64,000 bases of DNA from an uncultured Ruminococcus sp. (GCA_947176345.1 CAMWQI010000002.1:1-64000); one strand, 5' to 3'; shown: positions 4,181 to 61,192, counted from the first letter of the stretch. Translations and numbers: made by a program. The notes: generated by a model not told the origin, from the sequence alone.

Positions 4181-4372
4181 TTGAAAGTAAAATATATAGG
4201 AAAAGACCTTGTTGCTATTCAACAGGGCAAAATATATGAAGTAATTTCCATTGAAAAAGGCTGGTATAGGATTATGACGGAAATAAATGAAGATTATCTG
4301 TTTCCACCTGAATGTTTTGAAATTATACTTTCAGAAAAAGAAAAAAATCAAAATAAAATCAACCATCCGTAA
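4181..4372 (+). CDS. Small hypothetical protein
   Basis: TTG-start ORF immediately downstream of the previous CDS with RBS-like gcagggaga. Confidence 0.5.
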   Translation: MKVKYIGKDLVAIQQGKIYEVISIEKGWYRIMTEINEDYLFPPECFEIILSEKEKNQNKINHP

Positions 4373-4404
4373 CTGGATAAATCTATTAAAAAGGAGCTAA
4401 TAAC

Positions 4405-5574
4405 ATGAAAAGAAAAATTTTGTCTCTTATATCAGCAGTAACTATGGCATTTACGCTTATGCCGACCGTTGCCGTTGCAGAGGAAGAAACAACTACCAAA
4501 GAAACTATTAAGATTATGCCTATAGGCGATTCAATTACACATGGCTATCAGTCATCTGGTGGCTACAGAAAATACTTCTGCTACTGGTTCGGACGAGACG
4601 AAGAATATAATTTTGATATGGTAGGTCCTAACTCTGACTATCCCGAAACTTTTGAATACCACGACGAAACTATGACTTATGACAGCGACCACTGTGGTTA
4701 CAGCGGTTATGCCATTCAGTACATGAACGGCACTGAAACAAGACAGGGTATTCTTGAAACCTTACAGGACGGTAACTATCTCCAAACATATGACCCTGAT
4801 ATTATAATGTTGCAGATAGGAACTAATGACATTCTAAGTGCATACAATGAAGGAATTACAGACCGTCTTGAAAATCTCATCAATTACATTTCCGACAACA
4901 CAAGAGATGAGACAGTTATATTTGTAAGTACAATCCCATATATTGATGCTGTAAAGGTCTATGACTGGTGCTGGGCTTACGGTGATGAAAAATTCAGCAA
5001 CACCCCCGAAGATTTCGACAAGATAATAAACAACTATGTCGATAAATATAATAAATCTATTCCGGTACTCGTTGACAAGCTTCAAGACGAGGGAAAAAAA
5101 GTTCAGTTTGTGGATATCTATGAACGCATAAAAAAAGATAAACATTTTGAAGACGGCGTACACCCTAACGAAAAAGGCTATACAGGAATAGGTATACTTT
5201 GGGCTTCATATATTAAATATTATTTTGACATTCAGAATGCTATTGATAAAATCGACTCAACAGCAGAATGTCCATACAGAGTATCTGACTTAGTATCACT
5301 TTCAAACTATGTTTTAGGACGTAAAAATCACCAAATTACTGAAGAAAACTATTCTTTATATGACGTAAACGAAGACGGTGTGCTTGACAGCTTTGATTTA
5401 ACACTGTTAAGGCAGATGTTTATAGAAAAAAATATGAAAACTGAAAAAGTTCAGTCTTCAAATTCAACAGCCTCTACGATTCATAAAGCCGTAAACAGTG
5501 CAACTACAGAAATCGATGAGGACGAAAACAAAAATACTATAGAATACAACGGTAAAGTAATATCAATAACATAA
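4405..5574 (+). CDS. Secreted SGNH/GDSL hydrolase (CE3-like carbohydrate esterase) with C-terminal dockerin-like module
   Basis: Signal peptide; IMPIGDSITHG block, GTND block, DGVHPNEKGY block; dockerin-like segment with DVNEDGVLDSFDLTLLRQM. Confidence 0.85.
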   Translation: MKRKILSLISAVTMAFTLMPTVAVAEEETTTKETIKIMPIGDSITHGYQSSGGYRKYFCYWFGRDEEYNFDMVGPNSDYPETFEYHDETMTYDSDHCGYSGYAIQYMNGTETRQGILETLQDGNYLQTYDPDIIMLQIGTNDILSAYNEGITDRLENLINYISDNTRDETVIFVSTIPYIDAVKVYDWCWAYGDEKFSNTPEDFDKIINNYVDKYNKSIPVLVDKLQDEGKKVQFVDIYERIKKDKHFEDGVHPNEKGYTGIGILWASYIKYYFDIQNAIDKIDSTAECPYRVSDLVSLSNYVLGRKNHQITEENYSLYDVNEDGVLDSFDLTLLRQMFIEKNMKTEKVQSSNSTASTIHKAVNSATTEIDEDENKNTIEYNGKVISIT

Positions 5575-7602: not shown

Positions 7603-8779
7603 AAATATTCTCCCCTCTGTAACGTGCTATAGCTGCACAATCCTTGTCGCCACGTCCGGAGACTGTGACAATTATAATCTGTTCCTTGTCCATAGTGGGA
7701 GCGAGTTTCATGGCATAGGCTATGGCGTGTGCCGACTCTATAGCCGGAATAATTCCCTCAGTACGTGAGAGATATTCAAAAGCATTTACCGCCTCGTCAT
7801 CTGTAATGGGAACATATTCCGCACGTCCAATGTCGTGGAGGTGTGCGTGTTCAGGACCAACACCGGGGTAATCAAGACCAGCTGAAATTGAATAAACAGG
7901 TGCAATCTGTCCGTATTCGTCTTGACAAAAATATGACTTCATACCGTGGAAAATGCCTATTTTTCCAGTATTTACGGTAGCTGCTGTTTCAAAAGTATCA
8001 ATACCACGTCCGGCAGCCTCACAGCCTATAAGGCGTACTTTTTCGTCAGGTATGAAATGATAAAAACTTCCTATAGCGTTTGAACCGCCACCGACACAAG
8101 CAATTACAGCATCGGGAAGTCGTCCCTCTTTTTCCATAATTTGACTTCTTGATTCAAGTGAAATAACTGCCTGAAAATCACGCACAATAGTCGGGAACGG
8201 GTGCGGACCCATAACTGAACCCAGACAATAATGTGTATCACTTATGCGTGAAGTCCATTCTCTCATAGCTTCGGAAACTGCATCTTTGAGTGTTGCAGTG
8301 CCTGACTTTACCGGAATAACTTCTGCACCTAATAACTTCATTCTGTATACATTGAGTGCCTGACGTTTTGTGTCTTCCTCACCCATGAATACAACACATT
8401 CCATGTCAAGAAGTGCTGCCGCTGTAGCGGTTGCGACACCATGCTGACCTGCTCCGGTTTCGGCTATGAGACGGGTTTTGCCCATTTTTTTTGCAAGTAA
8501 AGCCTGTCCAAGAACGTTATTTATTTTATGTGAGCCGGTATGATTAAGGTCTTCACGTTTTAGATAAATTTTAGCCCCACCGAGTTCACGGGTGAGTTTT
8601 TCCGCATAGTAAAGCAGTGAAGGTCTTCCGGCGTAATTATCCAGTAATTCCCTTAATTCACGGTTGAAATCAGGGTCATATTTATAGTGATTATAGGCGT
8701 TTTCAAGTTCAATGACGGCATTCATAAGAGTTTCAGGAATATATTGTCCGCCATGAACGCCAAATCTTCCATTTGACAT
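7595..8779 (-). CDS. trpB: Tryptophan synthase beta subunit
   Basis: [28 protein letters not shown] lysine motif. Confidence 0.98.
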
Positions 8780-8780
8780 T

Positions 8781-9389
8781 TTAAATCAATCCTTTCTTTC
8801 TGATGGCTTCTGCAAAAGCTGTCATTTTGTTTAAATCCTTGTGACCGTCCGTTTCAAGTGAGGAACTGGCATCAACTGCATAGGGCTGTAACCTGCCGGA
8901 AATCTCTCCAACGTTTTCGGAAGTCAGTCCACCAGCAAGAAAATATGGACGGTTTATATTTTGTATAAGTGAGTGGTCAAAAGTCTTTCCCGAACCACTT
9001 CCGGAATCAAGAAGTATATAGTCCGCTGTTGACTTTATGGCTTTATTAATATCCTCCGGAATACAGACCTTAAAAGCCTGTATCACCGGAACAGTTATAA
9101 TTTTTCGGAGTTCGTTAATATATTCTTCGTCTTCCATACCGTGCAACTGTACTATATCAATAGTTTTATTGTTCACCAGTCCGGCTATGAAATCTTTTTC
9201 AGCATTAACAAAAACTCCCACCGGAATTATGTTTCTGTCAAGATTTTTCCGGAGTTCAAGGGCTTTTTCCGGCGAAACGTAACGTTTACTTTTTTTCGCA
9301 AACACAAAACCCACAAAATCCGGCATGACTTCATTTGCATAGTCAATATCACATGGACGACTTAAACCACACATTTTTATTTTAGTCAT
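8781..9389 (-). CDS. trpF: Phosphoribosylanthranilate isomerase
   Basis: [26 protein letters not shown]. Confidence 0.95.
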
Positions 9390-10168
9390 AAAATTCCTTT
9401 CAATTCAGCAAGTTTGGCGGTTTTATCGTCTGCACGCATAAGAGTTTCACCGATTAAAACAGCATCTGCACCGGCTTCACGGAGAAGTTTTATATCTTCA
9501 GCCGTTTTCACACCGCTTTCCGATACAAAAATTATATCTGCCGGAACTAATTCACGCATACGTCTACTGTTTCCGGTATCAACAGTAAAATCTTTTAAAT
9601 TTCTGTTATTCACACCAATAATTCTTGCACCGGAGTTTACAGCGGTTTTTATTTCGTTTTCGTCGTGTGCCTCAACAAGTGCGGAAATCCCCAGTTTATC
9701 GCATATCTTTATATATTCCTTAATCTGCTCTCCCGCGAGAATTGAACATATCAATAATACGGCTTTTGCACCGAGAATTTTAGCCTCATAAATCATATAT
9801 TCATCAACTGTAAAATCCTTGCGTATACAAGGTATTGAAACATTTTGTATTATTTCTTTCAGGTATTCGTCATGACCTAAAAACCATTTCGGCTCTGTAA
9901 GAACGGAAATGCAGTCTGCACCGGCTTTTTCATAGTCCTTTGCAATTTGCAGATATGGAAAATCCTCCGCAATAACGCCCTTTGAGGGTGAGGCTTTTTT
10001 ACACTCACATATAAATGACATACCATTTTTTTTAAGTGCCTTTTCAAACTCAAAATTCCCAGCCGGCATGGAAAGTGCCATAGCTTTTATCTCATCGGCG
10101 GAAATCTTCTGTTTTGCGATTTTAACACGTTCACGGGCGTGGTCGGCGAGTTTATCAAGAATTGTCAT
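9386..10168 (-). CDS. trpC: Indole-3-glycerol phosphate synthase
   Basis: FICECKKASPSKGVI, GVNNRNLKDFTVD, VSESGV; start set at MTILDKLADHARERV. Confidence 0.95.
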   Translation of the reverse strand: MTILDKLADHARERVKIAKQKISADEIKAMALSMPAGNFEFEKALKKNGMSFICECKKASPSKGVIAEDFPYLQIAKDYEKAGADCISVLTEPKWFLGHDEYLKEIIQNVSIPCIRKDFTVDEYMIYEAKILGAKAVLLICSILAGEQIKEYIKICDKLGISALVEAHDENEIKTAVNSGARIIGVNNRNLKDFTVDTGNSRRMRELVPADIIFVSESGVKTAEDIKLLREAGADAVLIGETLMRADDKTAKLAELKGIL

Positions 10169-53109: not shown

Positions 53110-53139
53110 AAAATGGACGTTCCTAAGAACGTCCATTTT
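53110..53139 (-). terminator. Probable original tRNA-Thr terminator displaced by the element
   Basis: AAAATGGACGTTC-CTAA-GAACGTCCATTTT directly distal to the displaced tRNA 3' end. Confidence 0.65.
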
Positions 53140-53186
53140 GTTGGAGCTGATGATCGGACTTGAACCGACGACCTACGCCTTACCAA
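53140..53186 (-). repeat. Distal att site (displaced tRNA-Thr 3' half)
   Basis: gttggagctgatgatcggacttgaaccgacgacctacgccttaccaa identical to 61115..61161. Confidence 0.93.
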
Positions 53187-53302
53187 AGTGTATACAAGCA
53201 TTCTGATAATGTATATTAGCCCTTTTCCCTATACTTAATAGATGATTTATTTTCATTTTTTGAAATAATAAGAACTAAATAAAGTACAAAAACTATTGTA
53301 CA

Positions 53303-53331
53303 TTGACTTTAACTTCCTTTCATGATATAAT
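53303..53331 (+). promoter_or_regulatory. Consensus-like sigma-A promoter for the Mor cassette
   Basis: TTGACT - 17 bp - TATAAT. Confidence 0.75.
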
Positions 53332-53338
53332 TATAGTA

Positions 53339-53399
53339 TACTCCGGATATATCAATAAAAATTCAAAAGTGTAGCCGATAGTTCAATAAATCCGGAGTA
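53339..53399. promoter_or_regulatory. Dyad just downstream of the Mor-cassette promoter
   Basis: TACTCCGGAT (53339..53348) and ATCCGGAGTA (53390..53399), perfect 10-bp arms. Confidence 0.5.
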
Positions 53400-53476
53400 C
53401 AGATTTTTAAGAACTTTTTAAATGCTATTATAATATCATTTTAAGGGTATTTAAATATGGATTGTGGAGTTAAGAA

Positions 53477-53764
53477 ATGGATAAAAATATAATTCTTAAA
53501 TCTGATAATAATATAGTTATTGAGCTTGTTGACAATTTCGGGTTGGAAACTGCATACAAGTTTATTGAAATATTCGGCGGAAGTCAAATATACATTCCAA
53601 AAATTGACAATATTTCAAGAGAATACAGAGACAGTGAAATATATAAAGACTATATAGACGGATTAAGTTACAAAAAATTAGTAATCAAATATAAACTCAG
53701 TGAAAAGACAATAAGAGTTATTGTAAACTCCGAGACAGAAAAAAGAAAGTCAATCAAAAGATGA
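53477..53764 (+). CDS. Mor transcription activator family protein (Mu Mor/C-like)
   Basis: FGGSQIYIPKIDNISREYRDSEIYKDYIDGLSYKKLVIKYKLSEKTIRVIV matches Mor family layout (IYIPK..., HTH with LSEKTI). Confidence 0.75.
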   Translation: MDKNIILKSDNNIVIELVDNFGLETAYKFIEIFGGSQIYIPKIDNISREYRDSEIYKDYIDGLSYKKLVIKYKLSEKTIRVIVNSETEKRKSIKR

Positions 53765-53807
53765 ACGGAAACACGGAGCAGGTACAGAATTAAGGACGGT
53801 GAATATT

Positions 53808-54137
53808 ATGAATATTGAAAAAATTCAGAATGATATTAAAAACAGCAGTTTCTTTCATATGAACGGCACAATATTAAGGACGTTGAATGTCATTGAAAAC
53901 AGCCGATGCGGATTGTCAAGCCTTGAATTTGTTTTCAGACAGACAACCGACCACAATTTATTTATTGAAAGTATTCGCTACTTATACGAAAGCGGATATA
54001 TAAGGCTTACAGACTGTAACAGCGGAAATCCTGTTGACCTGAAAGAAGATAAATTCAGAAATACTGAAACAGCACTTACAGCAAAGGGGATTCAGGTATT
54101 AAGAGGAATTATTGAAGATAACTGCATAGACGTGTGA
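53808..54137 (+). CDS. Phage winged-helix-like protein (Mu-like gene-block type)
   Basis: ILRTLNVIENSRCGLSSLEFVF...ESIRYLYESGYIRL...ALTAKGIQVLRGIIEDNCID. Confidence 0.55.
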   Translation: MNIEKIQNDIKNSSFFHMNGTILRTLNVIENSRCGLSSLEFVFRQTTDHNLFIESIRYLYESGYIRLTDCNSGNPVDLKEDKFRNTETALTAKGIQVLRGIIEDNCIDV

Positions 54138-54150
54138 CAGGGGGAACGAT

Positions 54151-54714
54151 ATGGGAAAGCATACAAGAAAACATTATGCCATTGACAAATTACCGCCTGA
54201 AATCAAGGGAACTGTTGACGAAATGATTAAAGCTGATTTTACATACCGTGAAATAGTAGAGTATATCAAAGAATCCGGAAACAGTGTGTCAATTTCAGCA
54301 GTGCAGAGATACGCCGCCAATTTAATGCAGTCAATACAGAGTATCAGAATGACACAGGCAAATTTCAGGGCAATCATGGACGAAACGGAAAACTATAACC
54401 ACATTGATTTTACAGAACCGCTTACACGTTTGCTATGCGGTCAGCTTCTTGAACAGATTAACAACCTTTCGGGCGAACAGTTACAGGAAATCGGAATAGA
54501 TGCTATCATAAAAAATACTATTGCTTTAACAAGAGCCGTCGCATACAAAAGAAATATTGAAATAAAAAATAAATCCATACTTGAAAACGGTCAAGATGAA
54601 TTTATGTCAACACTATTTGAAATAATGTCAGAAGATAATCCGAAACTTTACAGAGAACTAAAAAAATTCATAAAAAACCAGCAGAAAGAGTTAAACTGCA
54701 AGCCGTCTGAATAA
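54151..54714 (+). CDS. DUF3486-like phage protein (Mu gp27-like, putative small terminase)
   Basis: HYAIDKLPPEIKGTVDEMIKADFTYREIVEYIKESGNSVSISAVQRYAANL matches DUF3486 N-terminal HTH pattern. Confidence 0.65.
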   Translation: MGKHTRKHYAIDKLPPEIKGTVDEMIKADFTYREIVEYIKESGNSVSISAVQRYAANLMQSIQSIRMTQANFRAIMDETENYNHIDFTEPLTRLLCGQLLEQINNLSGEQLQEIGIDAIIKNTIALTRAVAYKRNIEIKNKSILENGQDEFMSTLFEIMSEDNPKLYRELKKFIKNQQKELNCKPSE

Positions 54715-54732
54715 TTTCAGACGGTCTTTTTT
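54702..54732 (+). terminator. Terminator of the Mor-wHTH-DUF3486 operon
   Basis: CCGTCTGAA-TAA-TTTCAGACGG-TCTTTTTT overlapping the stop codon. Confidence 0.8.
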
Positions 54733-54847
54733 ATTGCCTGAATGCCTTTAGAATTTTTCTGAAAACCTGCTTTTATTGTCAATAAGCGTATTGTCCCACA
54801 GAATCCCACTTTTATTTTAGCAGATATTTTCCCACCAAAATAACCGG

Positions 54848-54896
54848 ACGGAGCAGGGCGACAATCAAAATGTTTATTTAAATTCACCTGCTCCGT
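54848..54896. repeat. Inverted repeat ACGGAGCAGG...CCTGCTCCGT
   Basis: Perfect 10-bp arms at 54848..54857 and 54887..54896. Confidence 0.6.
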
Positions 54897-55107
54897 GTTT
54901 GTTGGGCGTGCATCACAAAGCAAGCACGGCAGTCAGAGCGAGAGCCAAGCAAGGCACTAACACACTTTTATGTAACTATCAGTAAGAAAAATTCTAACTT
55001 TGGAATTGCTCCGGAATGATTTTTTATTTCTGAAAAGTGTATATCACAAAAGTGCTAAACGCAAAAAAGCGTATATCAAGTATCTTAAAAATTGAAAGTG
55101 GGAAAAA

Positions 55108-55340
55108 ATCCGCCCGACGATATGCAGAACGGAAACAGAAATACTCTTGCTTATCCTGCTCCGGAGAGAGTTTTTTATTTTTTGTTTCTAAAAATAGTGA
55201 ACTTTTGTTACTTTTGCTTTTTAAGCCTTTGAATTTGCCTGTTTCAAGGCATTTTTTGCGGTTCAATAGTGATTGTAACTATTGTGAACTGCATTGAACT
55301 GTAGTGAACTTTTGCAAAAAATATCCGCCCGACGATATGC
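55108..55340 (+). repeat. 18-bp direct repeat ATCCGCCCGACGATATGC, two copies
   Basis: Exact copies at 55108..55125 and 55323..55340. Confidence 0.9.
55154..55312 (+). repeat. Left arm of long inverted repeat with TGAACT iterons
   Basis: CCTGCTCC..GTGAACTTTTGTTACTTTTGCTT..TTGAATTTGCCTGTTTCAAGGC..GTTCAATAGT.. TTGTGAACTGCATTGAACTGTAGTGAAC; reverse complement recurs at 59493..59638. Confidence 0.88.
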
Positions 55341-55361
55341 CGGACGGATTTCTTTTATTTG

Positions 55362-55793
55362 TTATGCTGTCTTGTTTTTTTCTGTGAGTTCGGCAATAAG
55401 CGTGATAACTTTTGCCTTATCGGCTAATGTCATACTTTGAAAAGCATTGAGAACCTGTTCTGCCGTCTCATCAATAGTATTATTTCTTAATATTGCAGTA
55501 TTTATGTTGGAGCTATTCTCAACATTTCCGTTTACTATGTTACTTCCAGTTATTGCAGTGTTATTATTTGTTTGTACTTTGAGATTGTTGGTGCGTCCTA
55601 AAAGATAATCAACAGAAACATCAAGATAATCTGCTATTTTTCCCATAATCTCAACAGAGGGCGTATAATCACGTTTTTCCAAATCATATATAAAACCTTT
55701 GCGAATAACACAATCTTCAAGTAATTTAGAAACAGGGACTTTTTTTGTTTTGCATTCGTCTTTGATGTTTTGTGCGATTTGTGCATTATTCAT
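55362..55793 (-). CDS. XRE/Cro-CI family regulator (candidate element master repressor)
   Basis: HTH: KVPVSKLLEDCVIRKGFIYDLEKRDYTPSVEIMGKIADYLDVSVDYLLGRTN. Confidence 0.88.
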   Translation of the reverse strand: MNNAQIAQNIKDECKTKKVPVSKLLEDCVIRKGFIYDLEKRDYTPSVEIMGKIADYLDVSVDYLLGRTNNLKVQTNNNTAITGSNIVNGNVENSSNINTAILRNNTIDETAEQVLNAFQSMTLADKAKVITLIAELTEKNKTA

Positions 55794-55853
55794 AACTACA
55801 CCTCCTAAACGTTGTGTAAATACACGAATTTACGAAAATTTGCTTGAATTAAC

Positions 55854-55882
55854 TTGACTTTTCGTAAATAAGCGTATATACT
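55854..55882 (+). promoter_or_regulatory. Promoter of the rightward xre-primase operon with overlapping operator-like repeats
   Basis: TTGACT - 17 bp - TATACT; TTTACGAAAA (upstream) and TTTTCGTAAA (in spacer) form a dyad. Confidence 0.7.
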
Positions 55883-55981
55883 GTAATTGTAACCGGCAAG
55901 GCTACATCTTTATTTTAGTATACCATAAGGCACGCTAAAAGTCAAGCATCTTGAAAATAAAATAGAAAGAGGTGAATAAAA

Positions 55982-56197
55982 ATGTCAATTGGTAAAGCCA
56001 TTAAATCTGAAAGACAGAAGCACAACATGACACAGGCAGAATTATCGGATGCGATAGCCGTCAATCGTGTAACGCTTGCAAGATATGAGAACGGAACAAA
56101 AAAGCCGTCACTTGATACGCTGATTGCCTTAGCGGACGTTCTGGATTGTTCGCTTGATGGACTTTTAGGCAGATACCAATATATCAGAAAGGACTGA
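55982..56197 (+). CDS. XRE family regulator
   Basis: HTH: MTQAELSDAIAVNRVTLARYENGTKKPSLDTLIALADVLDCSLDGLLG. Confidence 0.93.
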   Translation: MSIGKAIKSERQKHNMTQAELSDAIAVNRVTLARYENGTKKPSLDTLIALADVLDCSLDGLLGRYQYIRKD

Positions 56198-56401
56198 CAG
56201 CGGGAACACAAAGAAACCACTAAACGTTTGAGAACTGAAATTTTTTAAAAATAATGTACAAATAAAGGACAATTTTCTTTTTTCGGTAGCAGAACGGTAA
56301 GTGTGAGAGTGACACAAGCTGAAACAAAATATTGTACCAAAATAGCAATAAAACAACAAAAAGTTGTATATTTACAACACTAACTGAAAGGAGTGATTAA
56401 A

Positions 56402-56812
56402 GTGAAATTCAAAGACGAATACCACGAAATTTTATTCTGGATAATCATGCAGAAAATGAACTGTAATGATGTGTACAGTCAGTCTGTTGCTTATTTGATT
56501 GCCCTTGACGATGTATGCAGAAATCACATTGAAGAAATATTCGACTTCAAGGAAAACCTTATCAGGCGTGAAAGTCTTCACAAAGGCTGGCAGACTGGAA
56601 CAAGCAAGAAAACAACCCGTTTAACATTCAATCTTTGGAATGGTTGTTGCACTGATGGCGAAATCTATACGGACAAAAATGGCGACAAGAACTATTTACC
56701 GAGCGGACGTTATTCAGTATCAGACATTTTCTGTTGTTCCTATGCTCCGTACTACTGGGAAGCCGTGAAAATCCGTTATCCAGAGTACGCCGACACAGAC
56801 GAATGGGAATAA
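56402..56812 (+). CDS. DUF6075-like protein
   Basis: KDEYHEILFW...VAYLIALDDVCRNHIEEIFDFKENLIRRESLHKGWQTGTSKKTTRLTFNLWNG; GTG start after aaaggag. Confidence 0.6.
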   Translation: MKFKDEYHEILFWIIMQKMNCNDVYSQSVAYLIALDDVCRNHIEEIFDFKENLIRRESLHKGWQTGTSKKTTRLTFNLWNGCCTDGEIYTDKNGDKNYLPSGRYSVSDIFCCSYAPYYWEAVKIRYPEYADTDEWE

Positions 56813-56833
56813 AAAAAGAATGGTGGTGAGAAT

Positions 56834-57103
56834 ATGACGGAGCAGGAAGAAGATTTTATGAAATATCTGCTTGACAATCCACAAGAGTATTTTTGTGATG
56901 ACGTTGCAAGAGAGTTTCTTTATGATTATTTTGAAGAAGATAAAGACTGCATTTTTGATGAGTACCATTGTAAAGAGTGTAGCTATTATCCGGATTGTCG
57001 TTATAATGAAGATTGTGCAGAAGCAGAATGGGAGTTACAGCAACAGTTCATGAACATTGAAGCAAATCAGCAAAAAAAATATATTAACAGCAGGCATATT
57101 TAA
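56834..57103 (+). CDS. Small acidic Cys-containing hypothetical protein
   Basis: ORF with CKECSYYPDCRYNEDC; in line with primase operon. Confidence 0.55.
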   Translation: MTEQEEDFMKYLLDNPQEYFCDDVAREFLYDYFEEDKDCIFDEYHCKECSYYPDCRYNEDCAEAEWELQQQFMNIEANQQKKYINSRHI

Positions 57104-57141
57104 ATATGTGTCTGCTGTTTATTTTAGGAGGAAAAAAGAAA

Positions 57142-59487
57142 TTGAACGAAATAAAAGAAAAAATCAAGACTTTTCTGCCTGAATACGTGCAGGAAATTAC
57201 AAAGAAATCAAGCGGAAAAAATCAGTATATATGCCCGTTCTGCAACAGCGGTACAGGTAACAACCATTCCGGAGCGTTTACAGTTTATCCGGATAGTAAC
57301 ACATATTTCTGTTTTGCCTGTCAGCAGTCCGGTGATATTTTCAGCCTGTACGGAGCAATGAACAATATCAGCGATTTCAAGAACGTTCTGAATGAACTGT
57401 CACGCAAATACGGCATAGCTACAGTAACCGAAAGCAAGGACTATACAAAATTCTTTGCATTTGCAGAAAGTAACCTTTACAAAACAGATTATCTCACAAA
57501 ACGTGGAATTTCCATGGAAATGCAAAGAAATTTCCGTTGTGGTTACGTACCGGAATACAAGTATCAGGAAGACAAATCAACGCCGGCTGTGATAATTCCG
57601 ACATCTGACACGTCTTTCATGTGGAGAAGTACCACCGAAAACATCAAGCAGAAACGTGGAATTACACGTCTCCTGAATGCCGTTGCACTGAAAGACAGAT
57701 ATTGTTTTGTTGTTGAGGGGGAAATTGACTGCATGAGCGTTGTGGAATGCGGTTTTTCGTGTATCGGTTTAGGGTCAACAAGCAATATCAGAAAAATATT
57801 TGATTATGACACGTCAAAGACCGTTTTAATAATCGCTATGGACAATGACGGAGCAGGTCAGAAAGCTACAAACGAACTTGAAAAACTCTGCATCACACAC
57901 AGAACGGCTTTTATTACAGCTAATCCGGATGTGTGGAGCGGTTGCAAGGACGCTAACGAATTACTTATAAGCGACCGCAAAAGGCTTACAGAGAACTTAA
58001 AGAGCCTTGTTGCACGTGCGGAAAATTTTGACCGTGCAGAATTTCTGAATAAAATTTCAAGAGCAGATGAGACGGAAAAATGGGGTATTCCGGAAAGTTT
58101 CGACAGCCTGAAAAAGCCTGTTCCGTTCCCGATGCAGAGCTTACCGCCGTTACTCCGTGATTATCTGCAAGCAGTATCAGATTATGTACAAGTTGTGCCG
58201 GAAATGTCAGTATTGCCGTTGCTGTCGGTACTTGCTTTATGCGTACAGGGAAAAGCACTGATAAAACACGCCGGAAACAGCCACACAGAGCCATTGAACC
58301 TCTATACAATCACGATAGCCGCACCGGGTGAAAGAAAATCCGGAAGCCTTAAAGAATTTATGCGACCTGTAGAAGAATTTCAGGAAAAATATAATAAAAT
58401 ACACGCTCCGGAAGTCGAGGAATACAAGACGGAGCGTGCATATTTGGAGAATAAAAGAGCAAAGGCACTGAAAGCAGATTTGCAGGCGGCAAAAACCTAT
58501 ACAAAACAGCTTGCAAGCCTTGAAAAAAAGTATGAATTAGTATTGAATGCCAGTGATGCAACGCCAGAAGCACTTGCAATGGAAATATACAGGCAGGGCG
58601 GCAAGATTGGCATCATAGACGACGAGGGCAGTGTATTTGATGTTTTAAGTGGTATTTATTCAAACGGTCAGGCGAATATTAACATCTTTCTGAAAGCCTA
58701 TGACGGTGCAAATTACACCATTCTGAGACGTACCAAAGAAAATATTGAATTGAAAAAACCATTGCTTACTATGGGACTAATGGTACAGCCGGAACACTTT
58801 ACAGATGCTATGAACAACAGGCAGTTTGTAGGACGTGGATTTATTCACCGCTTTTTGTTTTCGTTTCCTGAAAGCAGAGCAGGATATTTGAAAATGAGCA
58901 GTCCAGATGTACCGCCAAAGCTTCAGAAGCAGTACAGCGACTTAATAAACCGTCTGCTTCGTTTGCCGTCAACGCCTGATATACCTGTTATAGTGTGCGA
59001 CAAAGAAGCAGAATTGTTATTTTCTGATTATCACGACCACTTGCAAAAGGAAATCAGGGACGGTGGAACGTTCGAGAACCTGAAAGAATGGGCATCAAAA
59101 CAATTCGGCAGAGTATTGAGAATAGCCGGTATCTTTCATTTATGCGAACACGAACCGGCAGAACGTCTTACAGGTCAGACCGCCATTAATTCAATAGCAA
59201 TAGCGACATGGGCGGAAAATCATGCTTTGAATGCGTTGTCTGGCACTGCATCAGAGCCGACAGAAATAAGAAACGCTAAATACATACTGAAAAAATTAAA
59301 AAAAGCTGAAAAAGATATGCTGTCAAAACACGAATTACTTGTTTTATGTCGTCCGCTTTTAACAGCAGATTGTATTGAACCGCTAAACCTTTTAGAAGAT
59401 ATGAATTATATAAAGCGTGAAAAAGTTTTCCGTGCCAATGGTGGAAATCCAAAAGAAACTATTAAAATCAATCCGCTGATATTTTAG
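57142..59487 (+). CDS. CHC2 zinc-finger/Toprim primase fused to DUF3987-like helicase domain
   Basis: YICPFCNSGTGNNHSGAFTVYPDSNTYFCFACQQSGD; Toprim CFVVEGEIDCMSV and LIIAMDNDGAG; ITIAAPGERKSGS P-loop-like; TTG 57142 preceded by AGGAGG. Confidence 0.85.
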   Translation: MNEIKEKIKTFLPEYVQEITKKSSGKNQYICPFCNSGTGNNHSGAFTVYPDSNTYFCFACQQSGDIFSLYGAMNNISDFKNVLNELSRKYGIATVTESKDYTKFFAFAESNLYKTDYLTKRGISMEMQRNFRCGYVPEYKYQEDKSTPAVIIPTSDTSFMWRSTTENIKQKRGITRLLNAVALKDRYCFVVEGEIDCMSVVECGFSCIGLGSTSNIRKIFDYDTSKTVLIIAMDNDGAGQKATNELEKLCITHRTAFITANPDVWSGCKDANELLISDRKRLTENLKSLVARAENFDRAEFLNKISRADETEKWGIPESFDSLKKPVPFPMQSLPPLLRDYLQAVSDYVQVVPEMSVLPLLSVLALCVQGKALIKHAGNSHTEPLNLYTITIAAPGERKSGSLKEFMRPVEEFQEKYNKIHAPEVEEYKTERAYLENKRAKALKADLQAAKTYTKQLASLEKKYELVLNASDATPEALAMEIYRQGGKIGIIDDEGSVFDVLSGIYSNGQANINIFLKAYDGANYTILRRTKENIELKKPLLTMGLMVQPEHFTDAMNNRQFVGRGFIHRFLFSFPESRAGYLKMSSPDVPPKLQKQYSDLINRLLRLPSTPDIPVIVCDKEAELLFSDYHDHLQKEIRDGGTFENLKEWASKQFGRVLRIAGIFHLCEHEPAERLTGQTAINSIAIATWAENHALNALSGTASEPTEIRNAKYILKKLKKAEKDMLSKHELLVLCRPLLTADCIEPLNLLEDMNYIKREKVFRANGGNPKETIKINPLIF

Positions 59488-59492
59488 CCAAT

Positions 59493-59638
59493 TGTTCACA
59501 ACAGTTCAATGCAGTTCACAACGGTTACAACAACTATTGAACTGCAAAAGCTGCCTTAAAACAGGCAAATTCAACATTAAAATAAGCAAAAGTAACAAAA
59601 GTTCATAATTTTCAGAAAAAAAATTCTGGAGCAGGTAG
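59493..59638 (-). repeat. Right arm of long inverted repeat with TGAACT iterons
   Basis: Reverse complement of 55154..55312, high similarity over ~115-150 bp. Confidence 0.88.
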
Positions 59639-59641
59639 AAA

Positions 59642-59677
59642 AAACGCCGTCCGGTTTAGGTAGGTGGGCGGCATTTT
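59642..59677 (+). terminator. Terminator downstream of primase
   Basis: GCCGTCC-N13-GGGCGGC hairpin (one G-U) followed by ATTTTT. Confidence 0.65.
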
Positions 59678-59757
59678 TCAGGAATATGGTATAGCTTAAT
59701 TCCACTTATGATTATACCATATTCCCACAAAAAAATCAAGGGGGGAATTTTTAAATA

Positions 59758-60987
59758 ATGGCAAGCATAAGAAAACAAAAAAACGGTTATTTATTCCGTG
59801 TGTCGTGCGGATATGATACTAACAGAAAGCAAATTGTAAAATCAATGACATGGAAACCCGATAAAGATATGACAGCCAAACAAGCGGAAAAAGAAGCAGT
59901 CAGACAAGCGGCAATCTTTGAAAACCAGTGCAAGAACGGCATGACAGGCAATCACCGTAATATAAAGCTGTCTGAATTTTGCATTATGTATCTCGATATT
60001 AAAAAGGACGTTCTCGCTCCACGAACATGGCACGATTACAGCAGAGCTATTGATAATCTGATAGTCCCTTTACTCGGTCACATGAAAATGTCGGACATAA
60101 AGCCGTCACACATACAGCAGTTTATTCACTACTTACAAGGCAATGTTAAACTCAAAAAAGATGGTTCGTTAGACACTGAAAGTCCTAAACTCTCAAATTC
60201 AACAATTAAACGAAAACTTACTATTTTACAATCAATATTCAGACAGGCAGTTAAACTTGATATTATTTCAAACAATCCGGCAAATGCTGAAAAACTTACT
60301 ATTCCAAAAACAATAACACCAAAAATTGAGATATTCAGCAAGCAGGAAGCAGCGGAAATGCTGTCATGTTTAGAAAGTGAACCGTTACAGTTTCAAGTGC
60401 TGATACAACTTGCAATAATGACTGGTTGCCGATGCGGTGAACTTGTCGGACTAAAATTCAGCGACATTGACTATCAGACAAACAAAATCACTGTTGAACG
60501 TTCTGCCTATAAGGTATCAGGACAACCGACGGAAATTAAACCGCCGAAAGATTATGAAGTCAGAACCATAACGATAAATAGCTACTGTATTGAACTTATT
60601 AGGCTTTTAAAAGCCGAAAAAGAACAACAGGCTATTGAGCAGGCGGAAACATGGCATAATGAAGATTGGTTATTTACTCAGCACAACGGCGAAATTATGA
60701 ACCCTCAGACACCTACAAAGCAATTCAGCAAGTTCTTGAAAAAGCATGGACTGAAACACCGCAAATTTCATAGCTTACGTCATACTTCCGCAACCCTGCT
60801 CCTATATGGTGGTGTTAATCTCAAACAGGTTCAGGAACGTCTCGGACATGGTGACATATCAACAACAAACAAGTATTTACACTGTATAGCAGAAGCCGAT
60901 GAGGAAGCAGCTAACGTTTTACAGAATATGCTTATCACGAAAAGGCACGTTGAAGCAGTGGAAAAAATCAAGGAAAAAACCGGCTGA
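59758..60987 (+). CDS. int: Tyrosine recombinase / phage integrase
   Basis: Arm-binding N-term, SAM-like core, ATMTGCRCGELVGLKFSDID-type Arg box (IMTGCRCGELVGLKFSDI), HSLRHTSATLLLYGGVNLKQVQERLGHGDISTTNKYLH. Confidence 0.96.
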   Translation: MASIRKQKNGYLFRVSCGYDTNRKQIVKSMTWKPDKDMTAKQAEKEAVRQAAIFENQCKNGMTGNHRNIKLSEFCIMYLDIKKDVLAPRTWHDYSRAIDNLIVPLLGHMKMSDIKPSHIQQFIHYLQGNVKLKKDGSLDTESPKLSNSTIKRKLTILQSIFRQAVKLDIISNNPANAEKLTIPKTITPKIEIFSKQEAAEMLSCLESEPLQFQVLIQLAIMTGCRCGELVGLKFSDIDYQTNKITVERSAYKVSGQPTEIKPPKDYEVRTITINSYCIELIRLLKAEKEQQAIEQAETWHNEDWLFTQHNGEIMNPQTPTKQFSKFLKKHGLKHRKFHSLRHTSATLLLYGGVNLKQVQERLGHGDISTTNKYLHCIAEADEEAANVLQNMLITKRHVEAVEKIKEKTG

Positions 60988-61063
60988 AAGCAACGAATTA
61001 CAGCAGAATTTTATGTTTTTCTGAAAACAATGTATAAATAAAGGATAATTTAATATAAATCAA

Positions 61064-61105
61064 AAAAACAGGCACTTTCTACAAGAAAGAAAATGCCTGT
61101 TTTTC
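61064..61105. terminator. Terminator between integrase and tRNA-Thr
   Basis: AAAACAGGCA...TGCCTGTTTTT. Confidence 0.8.
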
Positions 61106-61116
61106 GTTCTTTTCGT

Positions 61117-61192
61117 TGGAGCTGATGATCGGACTTGAACCGACGACCTACGCCTTACCAAGGCGTTGCGCTACCGACTGTGCCACATCAGC
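61117..61192 (-). tRNA. tRNA-Thr (anticodon GGT), reconstituted attachment site
   Basis: GCTGATG/CATCAGC acceptor, ACGCC-TTGGTAA-GGCGT anticodon arm, GTCGG-TTCAAGT-CCGAT T arm, CCA encoded. Confidence 0.93.

Follow-up and report, generated by a model that had tools for sequence, protein, structure and literature searches.

What is the role of the two long inverted repeats that enclose the regulatory and primase genes of a satellite-like island in an uncultured Ruminococcus sp.? The original prediction for this locus offered two answers, paired replication origins or recombination sites that could invert or mobilise the enclosed 4.2-kb core. The window, that is, the whole stretch of DNA that was analysed, comprises 64,000 nucleotides, and all coordinates are counted from its first base. 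Within it the island spans ~8.0 kb (53130..61192) and is integrated at tRNA-Thr(GGT), with an att-type direct repeat of 62 nt (53130-53191 and 61105-61166, 92%) whose right copy overlaps the tRNA-Thr gene (61117-61192). No capsid gene was found in the island, which looks like a phage satellite with putative helper dependence; for packaging by a helper, the terminase-like gene is at most a hint. Its features are given here in order; a small phrog_25462 protein is encoded between the first two.

53477..53764, plus strand, Mor-like transcription activator (Pfam Mor, 3e-14; PHROG late activator)
54151..54714, plus strand, small-terminase-like protein of the Mu gp27 type (Pfam Phage_Mu_Gp27, 7.5e-15; phrog_426 terminase small subunit, 1.8e-24)
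55180..55328, plus strand, left arm, candidate origin module flanked by the terminase-like gene and the repressor gene, whose 3' ends converge on it; inverted repeat with 59475-59623
55362..55793, minus strand, XRE/CI-like repressor (HTH_3, 1e-4; phrog_8, 8.5e-13)
55982..56197, plus strand, Cro-like XRE regulator (HTH_3, 9e-18)
56393..56812, plus strand, DUF6075 protein (Pfam, 1e-40)
56834..57103, plus strand, small Cys-rich ORF without a family match
57106..59487, plus strand, primase-helicase and putative initiator (DnaG-type zinc finger, Toprim, DUF3987 helicase, C-terminal winged-helix-like region)
59475..59623, minus strand, right arm, candidate origin module directly 3' of the primase gene; inverted repeat with the left arm
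59758..60987, plus strand, tyrosine integrase (Pfam Phage_integrase, 1.9e-28)

The start of the primase-helicase is provisional, 57106 lying 27 nt upstream of the likely ATG/TTG starts. The genes enclosed by the arms (repressor, Cro-like regulator, DUF6075 protein, Cys-rich ORF, and primase-helicase) are those originally named.

In a repeat search, the inverted repeat formed by the two arms greatly exceeded all others of the region in length (149 nt, 83% complementary, with 4146 nt between them). Their gapped alignment is identical in 126 of 151 columns and contains 4 gap columns. Local alignment of the pair scores 165, compared with 30-31 for the best shuffled controls (z ~59), which keep base composition within 60-base blocks, not dinucleotides. 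The predicted repeat is therefore real, although its bounds, first placed at 55154-55312 and 59493-59638, are slightly shifted relative to those found here. The arm pair has no further occurrence in the rest of the host assembly (2.78 Mb searched). A 31-nt direct repeat (90%; 55103-55133 and 55318-55348) lies on both sides of the left arm, and its second copy is terminator-like (ATCCGCCCGACG...GGACGGAT); the two copies may delimit an origin cassette that can be exchanged.

Each arm is an iteron array, a property that the original prediction missed. About five TGAAC-type iterons per arm surround a conserved core (TTTGCCTGTTT(C/T)AAGGCA), and the pattern [TG]TGAAC[TC] has 8 matches in the arms (298 bp), compared with 0.18 expected from the rest of the window. 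From the outer end, both arms consist of an AT-rich flank, an outer iteron, the core, an iteron in the opposite orientation, and three inner iterons at 10-bp spacing, which point toward the enclosed genes.

55196..55204, plus strand, outer iteron of the left arm, AGTGAACTT (from the sequence)
55234..55251, plus strand, core of the left arm, TTTGCCTGTTTCAAGGCA (motif recovered across modules)
55260..55268, minus strand, opposite-orientation iteron of the left arm (from the sequence)
55283..55311, plus strand, three inner iterons of the left arm at 10-bp spacing, TGAACTGCAT TGAACTGTAG TGAACTTTTG (from the sequence)
59494..59521, minus strand, three inner iterons of the right arm (from the sequence)
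59535..59544, plus strand, opposite-orientation iteron of the right arm (from the sequence)
59552..59569, minus strand, core of the right arm, TTTGCCTGTTTTAAGGCA (motif discovery)
59600..59608, minus strand, outer iteron of the right arm (from the sequence)

The first iteron of the right arm (GTTCAC from 59494) begins 6 nt past the primase stop codon (TAG, 59485-59487), and it is for this iteron that the 6-bp distance first reported for the arm is true. Motif discovery in 24 modules, taken from the window island and its relatives, recovered the core (score 342 versus 209 shuffled); since these modules were picked by position and iterons and in part by eye for the core, the motif is supporting rather than independent evidence. 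The same search found no core motif in the modules of one island from another genus (L113). A hand-made palindromic core pattern had no match even in the window's own arms, and motif discovery was used instead.

The right arm has the character of a satellite origin. In phage-inducible chromosomal islands (PICIs), the origin lies immediately 3' of the initiator gene and always has two iteron sets around an AT-rich region (PMC6092414). The right arm likewise lies directly 3' of rep with two iteron sets flanking an AT-rich region, and the window island shares with PICI/SaPI elements the use of element-specific iterons and, with PICIs, site-specific integration (the 62-nt att repeat at tRNA-Thr and a tyrosine integrase). 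Many islands with a related primase or helicase also have their own iteron cluster directly 3' of rep. Unlike PICI/SaPI elements, however, the window island has a second copy of the origin module beyond the repressor. The PICI order of int, divergent repressor, rep, ori, and then terS and interference genes is also not found here: int is found downstream of rep, past the right arm, and the terS-like gene beyond the repressor, to the left of the left arm. The Rep of related satellites is VapE-like, and the window helicase belongs to a different family.

Inverted arms around repressor and rep recur in three further islands. Two of these encode primases 52% identical to that of the window, with iterons of the TTAGTGAAA (L053) and TGTCA (L054) types; the third (L113) belongs to another genus, has a helicase 33% identical to that of the window, and uses the iteron TGTCAAG. 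In L054 and L113 the left arm stops 1-2 bp short of the 3' end of the repressor gene and the right arm starts 3-7 bp past the rep stop; the right slot of L054 also contains an extra short inverted match. A matrix of left versus right arms gave high scores only within an element (165, 81, 52, and 103), and scores between elements were at the shuffled level, except for the window versus L051, an island that has the window's iterons. The iterons are thus unrelated among the four bracketing elements, in which pairing, position, and inverted orientation are kept. Such behavior, in which both arms change together and keep their place and orientation, is expected of two sites for one element-specific protein. 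Gene conversion between arms could be an added contributor to their similarity within an island. Bracketing cases number only four and come mostly from fragmented metagenome assemblies. Order- and class-level searches, and a search of the genus of L113, found no further bracketing elements. Among the viral contigs scanned, the window primase had no match, one alignment (A1) recovered distant primase relatives only, and another (A2) recovered eight distant DUF3987 relatives, none with a strong bracketing pair.

These comparisons bear directly on the proposal that the arms are recombination sites that invert or mobilise the 4.2-kb core. Inverted repeats of 149 nt and 83% could recombine, and a tyrosine integrase adjoins them. 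However, the repressor-rep core is oriented alike in the four bracketing elements found, arm sequence differs wholly between elements in which the genes are conserved, the att repeats are at other positions, and the arms have the structure of iteron arrays; in addition, a single slot contains two neighboring inverted iteron sets in some relatives. We therefore regard this half of the original prediction as unsupported and very improbable. Arm conservation in related elements, which the original prediction took as a criterion, extends to pairing, position, and orientation, but not to sequence.

The primase-helicase was compared by structure and among relatives. Its predicted structure (mean pLDDT 75) ends in a helix, a strand, two helices, and two strands (residues 719-788), and the C-terminal region (about residues 713-793) is predicted to be winged-helix-like. 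In a Foldseek search the N-terminal part resembled the DnaG core (E 3.5e-5), and the helicase part weakly resembled MCM (E 1e-3 or worse); at the sequence level, a profile search yielded no relative of solved structure. In the close relatives L050 and L052 the helicase domain is 92-93% identical to that of the window and the winged-helix core only 46-48%, and the iterons of L052 differ from the window's. In L051, whose iterons are as in the window, the winged-helix core is 80% identical (Fisher p for the domain contrast, 3e-13, 1e-14, and 0.11 for L050, L052, and L051, respectively). The low identity in L050 and L052 and the high identity in L051 show that the region that putatively reads DNA is exchanged when the iterons are.

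The VapE-type satellite Reps, an independent family, carry the same message that the C-terminus changes with the iterons. Among 15 such Reps from the same genus (L063-L071, L075, L077-L079, L082, and L088), identity over the last 16 compared residues is 87.5% between those with the same iteron and 49% between those with different iterons (permutation p 1e-4), whereas over the preceding 60 residues it is 73% and 71%, respectively (p 0.23). At the 3' ends of these genes the last ~16 encoded residues vary with the type of iteron in a nearly one-to-one manner, as in KTEWIKPYGNVK with GAACCAA, KVERLNIYGLQR with GTTACAA, and KKIRLDIYGVQW with GGAACA, a correspondence that is possibly a recognition code.

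The identity of the co-replaced region also speaks to a reading of the arms as operators for the repressor or the Cro-like protein rather than as Rep sites. The arms do lie near the regulator genes, but both are at gene 3' ends, outside the divergent promoter region (55794-55981), and the protein region that is replaced with the iterons is the C-terminus of the primase, which makes operators very improbable. The interpretation of the arms as origin modules, by contrast, is well supported by sequence comparison, through their iterons, the position 3' of rep, element-specific iterons common to both arms, and the co-replaced rep C-terminus; to this extent the original suggestion of paired replication origins stands. 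That both arms act jointly is what we infer from their arrangement.

A two-site arrangement of this kind is found in P4, with which the island was compared on the basis of the annotated record (X51522) and PMC4234260. The layout is P4-like in that iteron sites bracket a primase-helicase and a repressor in both. The P4 annotation places crr (4291-4590) 46 bp past the alpha gene, on its 3' side, and ori (9086-9809) on the far side of cI; both contain the same type-1 repeats, and together they bracket alpha, ORF106, ORF151, epsilon, cI, and ORF88. In P4, as in the window island, the iteron sites of one initiator are found at two places around the primase-helicase and the cI repressor, one of them directly 3' of the primase gene, and the distance in P4 is ~4.7 kb. 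The alpha protein binds the origin repeats via a winged helix and then unwinds and primes (PMC4234260). Like the window protein, it combines a zinc finger and Toprim primase with a fused helicase and a C-terminal DNA-binding region, which is putative in the window. The helicases differ, being of the D5_N/Pox_D5 type (SF3) in alpha and DUF3987 (MCM-like by fold) in the window protein. Further, the similarity between ori and crr of P4 is mostly confined to the 8-bp repeats (inverted score 41 versus 30 shuffled), whereas the window arms are long near-identical inverted copies; crr itself is a double 120-bp repeat. With these differences, the window island is a member of neither the P4-type nor the PICI family. 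To our knowledge, the need of P4 for a second cis site (crr) besides ori is not fully explained.

Iteron plasmids such as R6K also have the iterons of one initiator at separated sites, which engage in looping and handcuffing. The window island resembles them in this separation, but their initiators belong to another family and they lack the inverted bracketing of the initiator gene. Copy control by spare iterons is established for these plasmids, and the same iterons are present in both arms of the window island; one arm might accordingly be the origin and the other a control site for handcuffing or incompatibility that titrates Rep and limits copy number or over-initiation. We consider this division of labor rather unlikely, as both arms contain the full module including the core, not iterons alone.

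The distribution of modules among relatives is informative about whether two are required. The window island has one module in each of two slots, 3' of the repressor and 3' of rep, and its slot 3' of the repressor (171 bp) has no internal inverted partner. In the close relative L052 no arm follows the helicase gene on its 3' side, but the slot 3' of the repressor holds an iteron array of a type other than the window's, and L083, L084, and L085 have yet other iterons in a slot with similar flanks (a CTCCGGA...TTTTTTA stretch and the same terminator). In these four islands the slot is 290-389 bp long and contains inverted iteron sets that are significant relative to shuffles. Of the islands whose only slot is 3' of rep, eight have side-by-side inverted sets of at least 60 bp, and the rest have shorter inverted sets or none. 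The simplest reading of these sequences is that the usual set is two inverted modules, placed together in one of two slots or one per slot. In L050, which is 85% identical, the right arm is absent and the left slot falls outside its contig. As many relatives have a single origin region, some without a clear second set, the second module is perhaps not essential.

Several observations on individual loci accompany this survey. In L056, an intermediate, near-identical inverted origin-like copies (7816-7937 and 8400-8520, as oriented) lie ~460 bp apart; both follow rep on its 3' side, and the interval holds no clear gene. The L052 helicase is preceded by ATGACGA repeats that resemble iterons; these were rejected because they are coding. 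Three islands from different genera (L110, L111, and L247) have a TGCATTT repeat region directly 3' of rep and a 26-30 nt inverted copy of it inside rep, ~585 nt from the frame start. The last 60 bases of L083 (G116:C73; CTTATACACATCTCCG...) resemble a sequencing-adapter remnant, and the join beyond this contig end is therefore not to be trusted.

The arms could also be two independent, redundant origins, each complete and PICI-like, with the second copy a duplication that has no joint function. Iterons lie on both sides of the core in each arm, as described for PICI origins, and one slot suffices for many relatives. A mere duplicate, however, should often be direct or decayed, and in each of the four bracketing cases the arms are inverted and sit at either end of the repressor-rep module; two inverted sets are also still frequent in one-slot relatives. 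Redundancy is thus possible, but we find it unlikely. In our judgment, the island probably carries its own Rep-binding origin module in two inverted copies, the arms, which together constitute a split or two-site origin.

How such an origin might operate can be outlined by analogy with P4 alpha acting on ori and crr. The island would be derepressed and then excised as a circle, and the primase-helicase would bind both arms via its C-terminal winged-helix-like region. Looping over the 4.2-kb repressor-primase module would bring the inverted arms together, after which the AT-rich part would melt and the helicase would be loaded and prime; pairing of the arms may also restrict copy number. From the comparisons above we infer that Rep binds the arms, that they act as an origin, that looping pairs them, and that copy number is controlled. 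As a tentative generalization, for which we would claim plausibility rather than probability, one origin may consist of two inverted half-origins with free spacing (tens of bases to 5 kb) that are active only when the initiator pairs them, that can flank a whole repressor-replication module, and that are exchanged with the winged-helix region as one specificity unit. The same bracketing with a different helicase and unrelated iterons suggests a general design. Relatives with iteron sets together or apart offer ready-made constructs on whether origin halves must pair, and the exchange of the initiator C-terminus with the iterons provides a tractable recognition code for satellite replicons.

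Two further observations concern the biology of the satellite. The genes for the Mor-like activator and the Mu gp27-like terminase subunit are neighbors (53477-53764 and 54151-54714), which suggests a helper phage whose late control or packaging is Mu-like. The host assembly (G000) contains at least eight further satellite-like loci (contigs C234, C196, C229, C150, C186, C110, C53, and C197) with a primase N-terminus ~60% identical to that of the window, and their relatives have a VapE-like helicase where the window protein has DUF3987.
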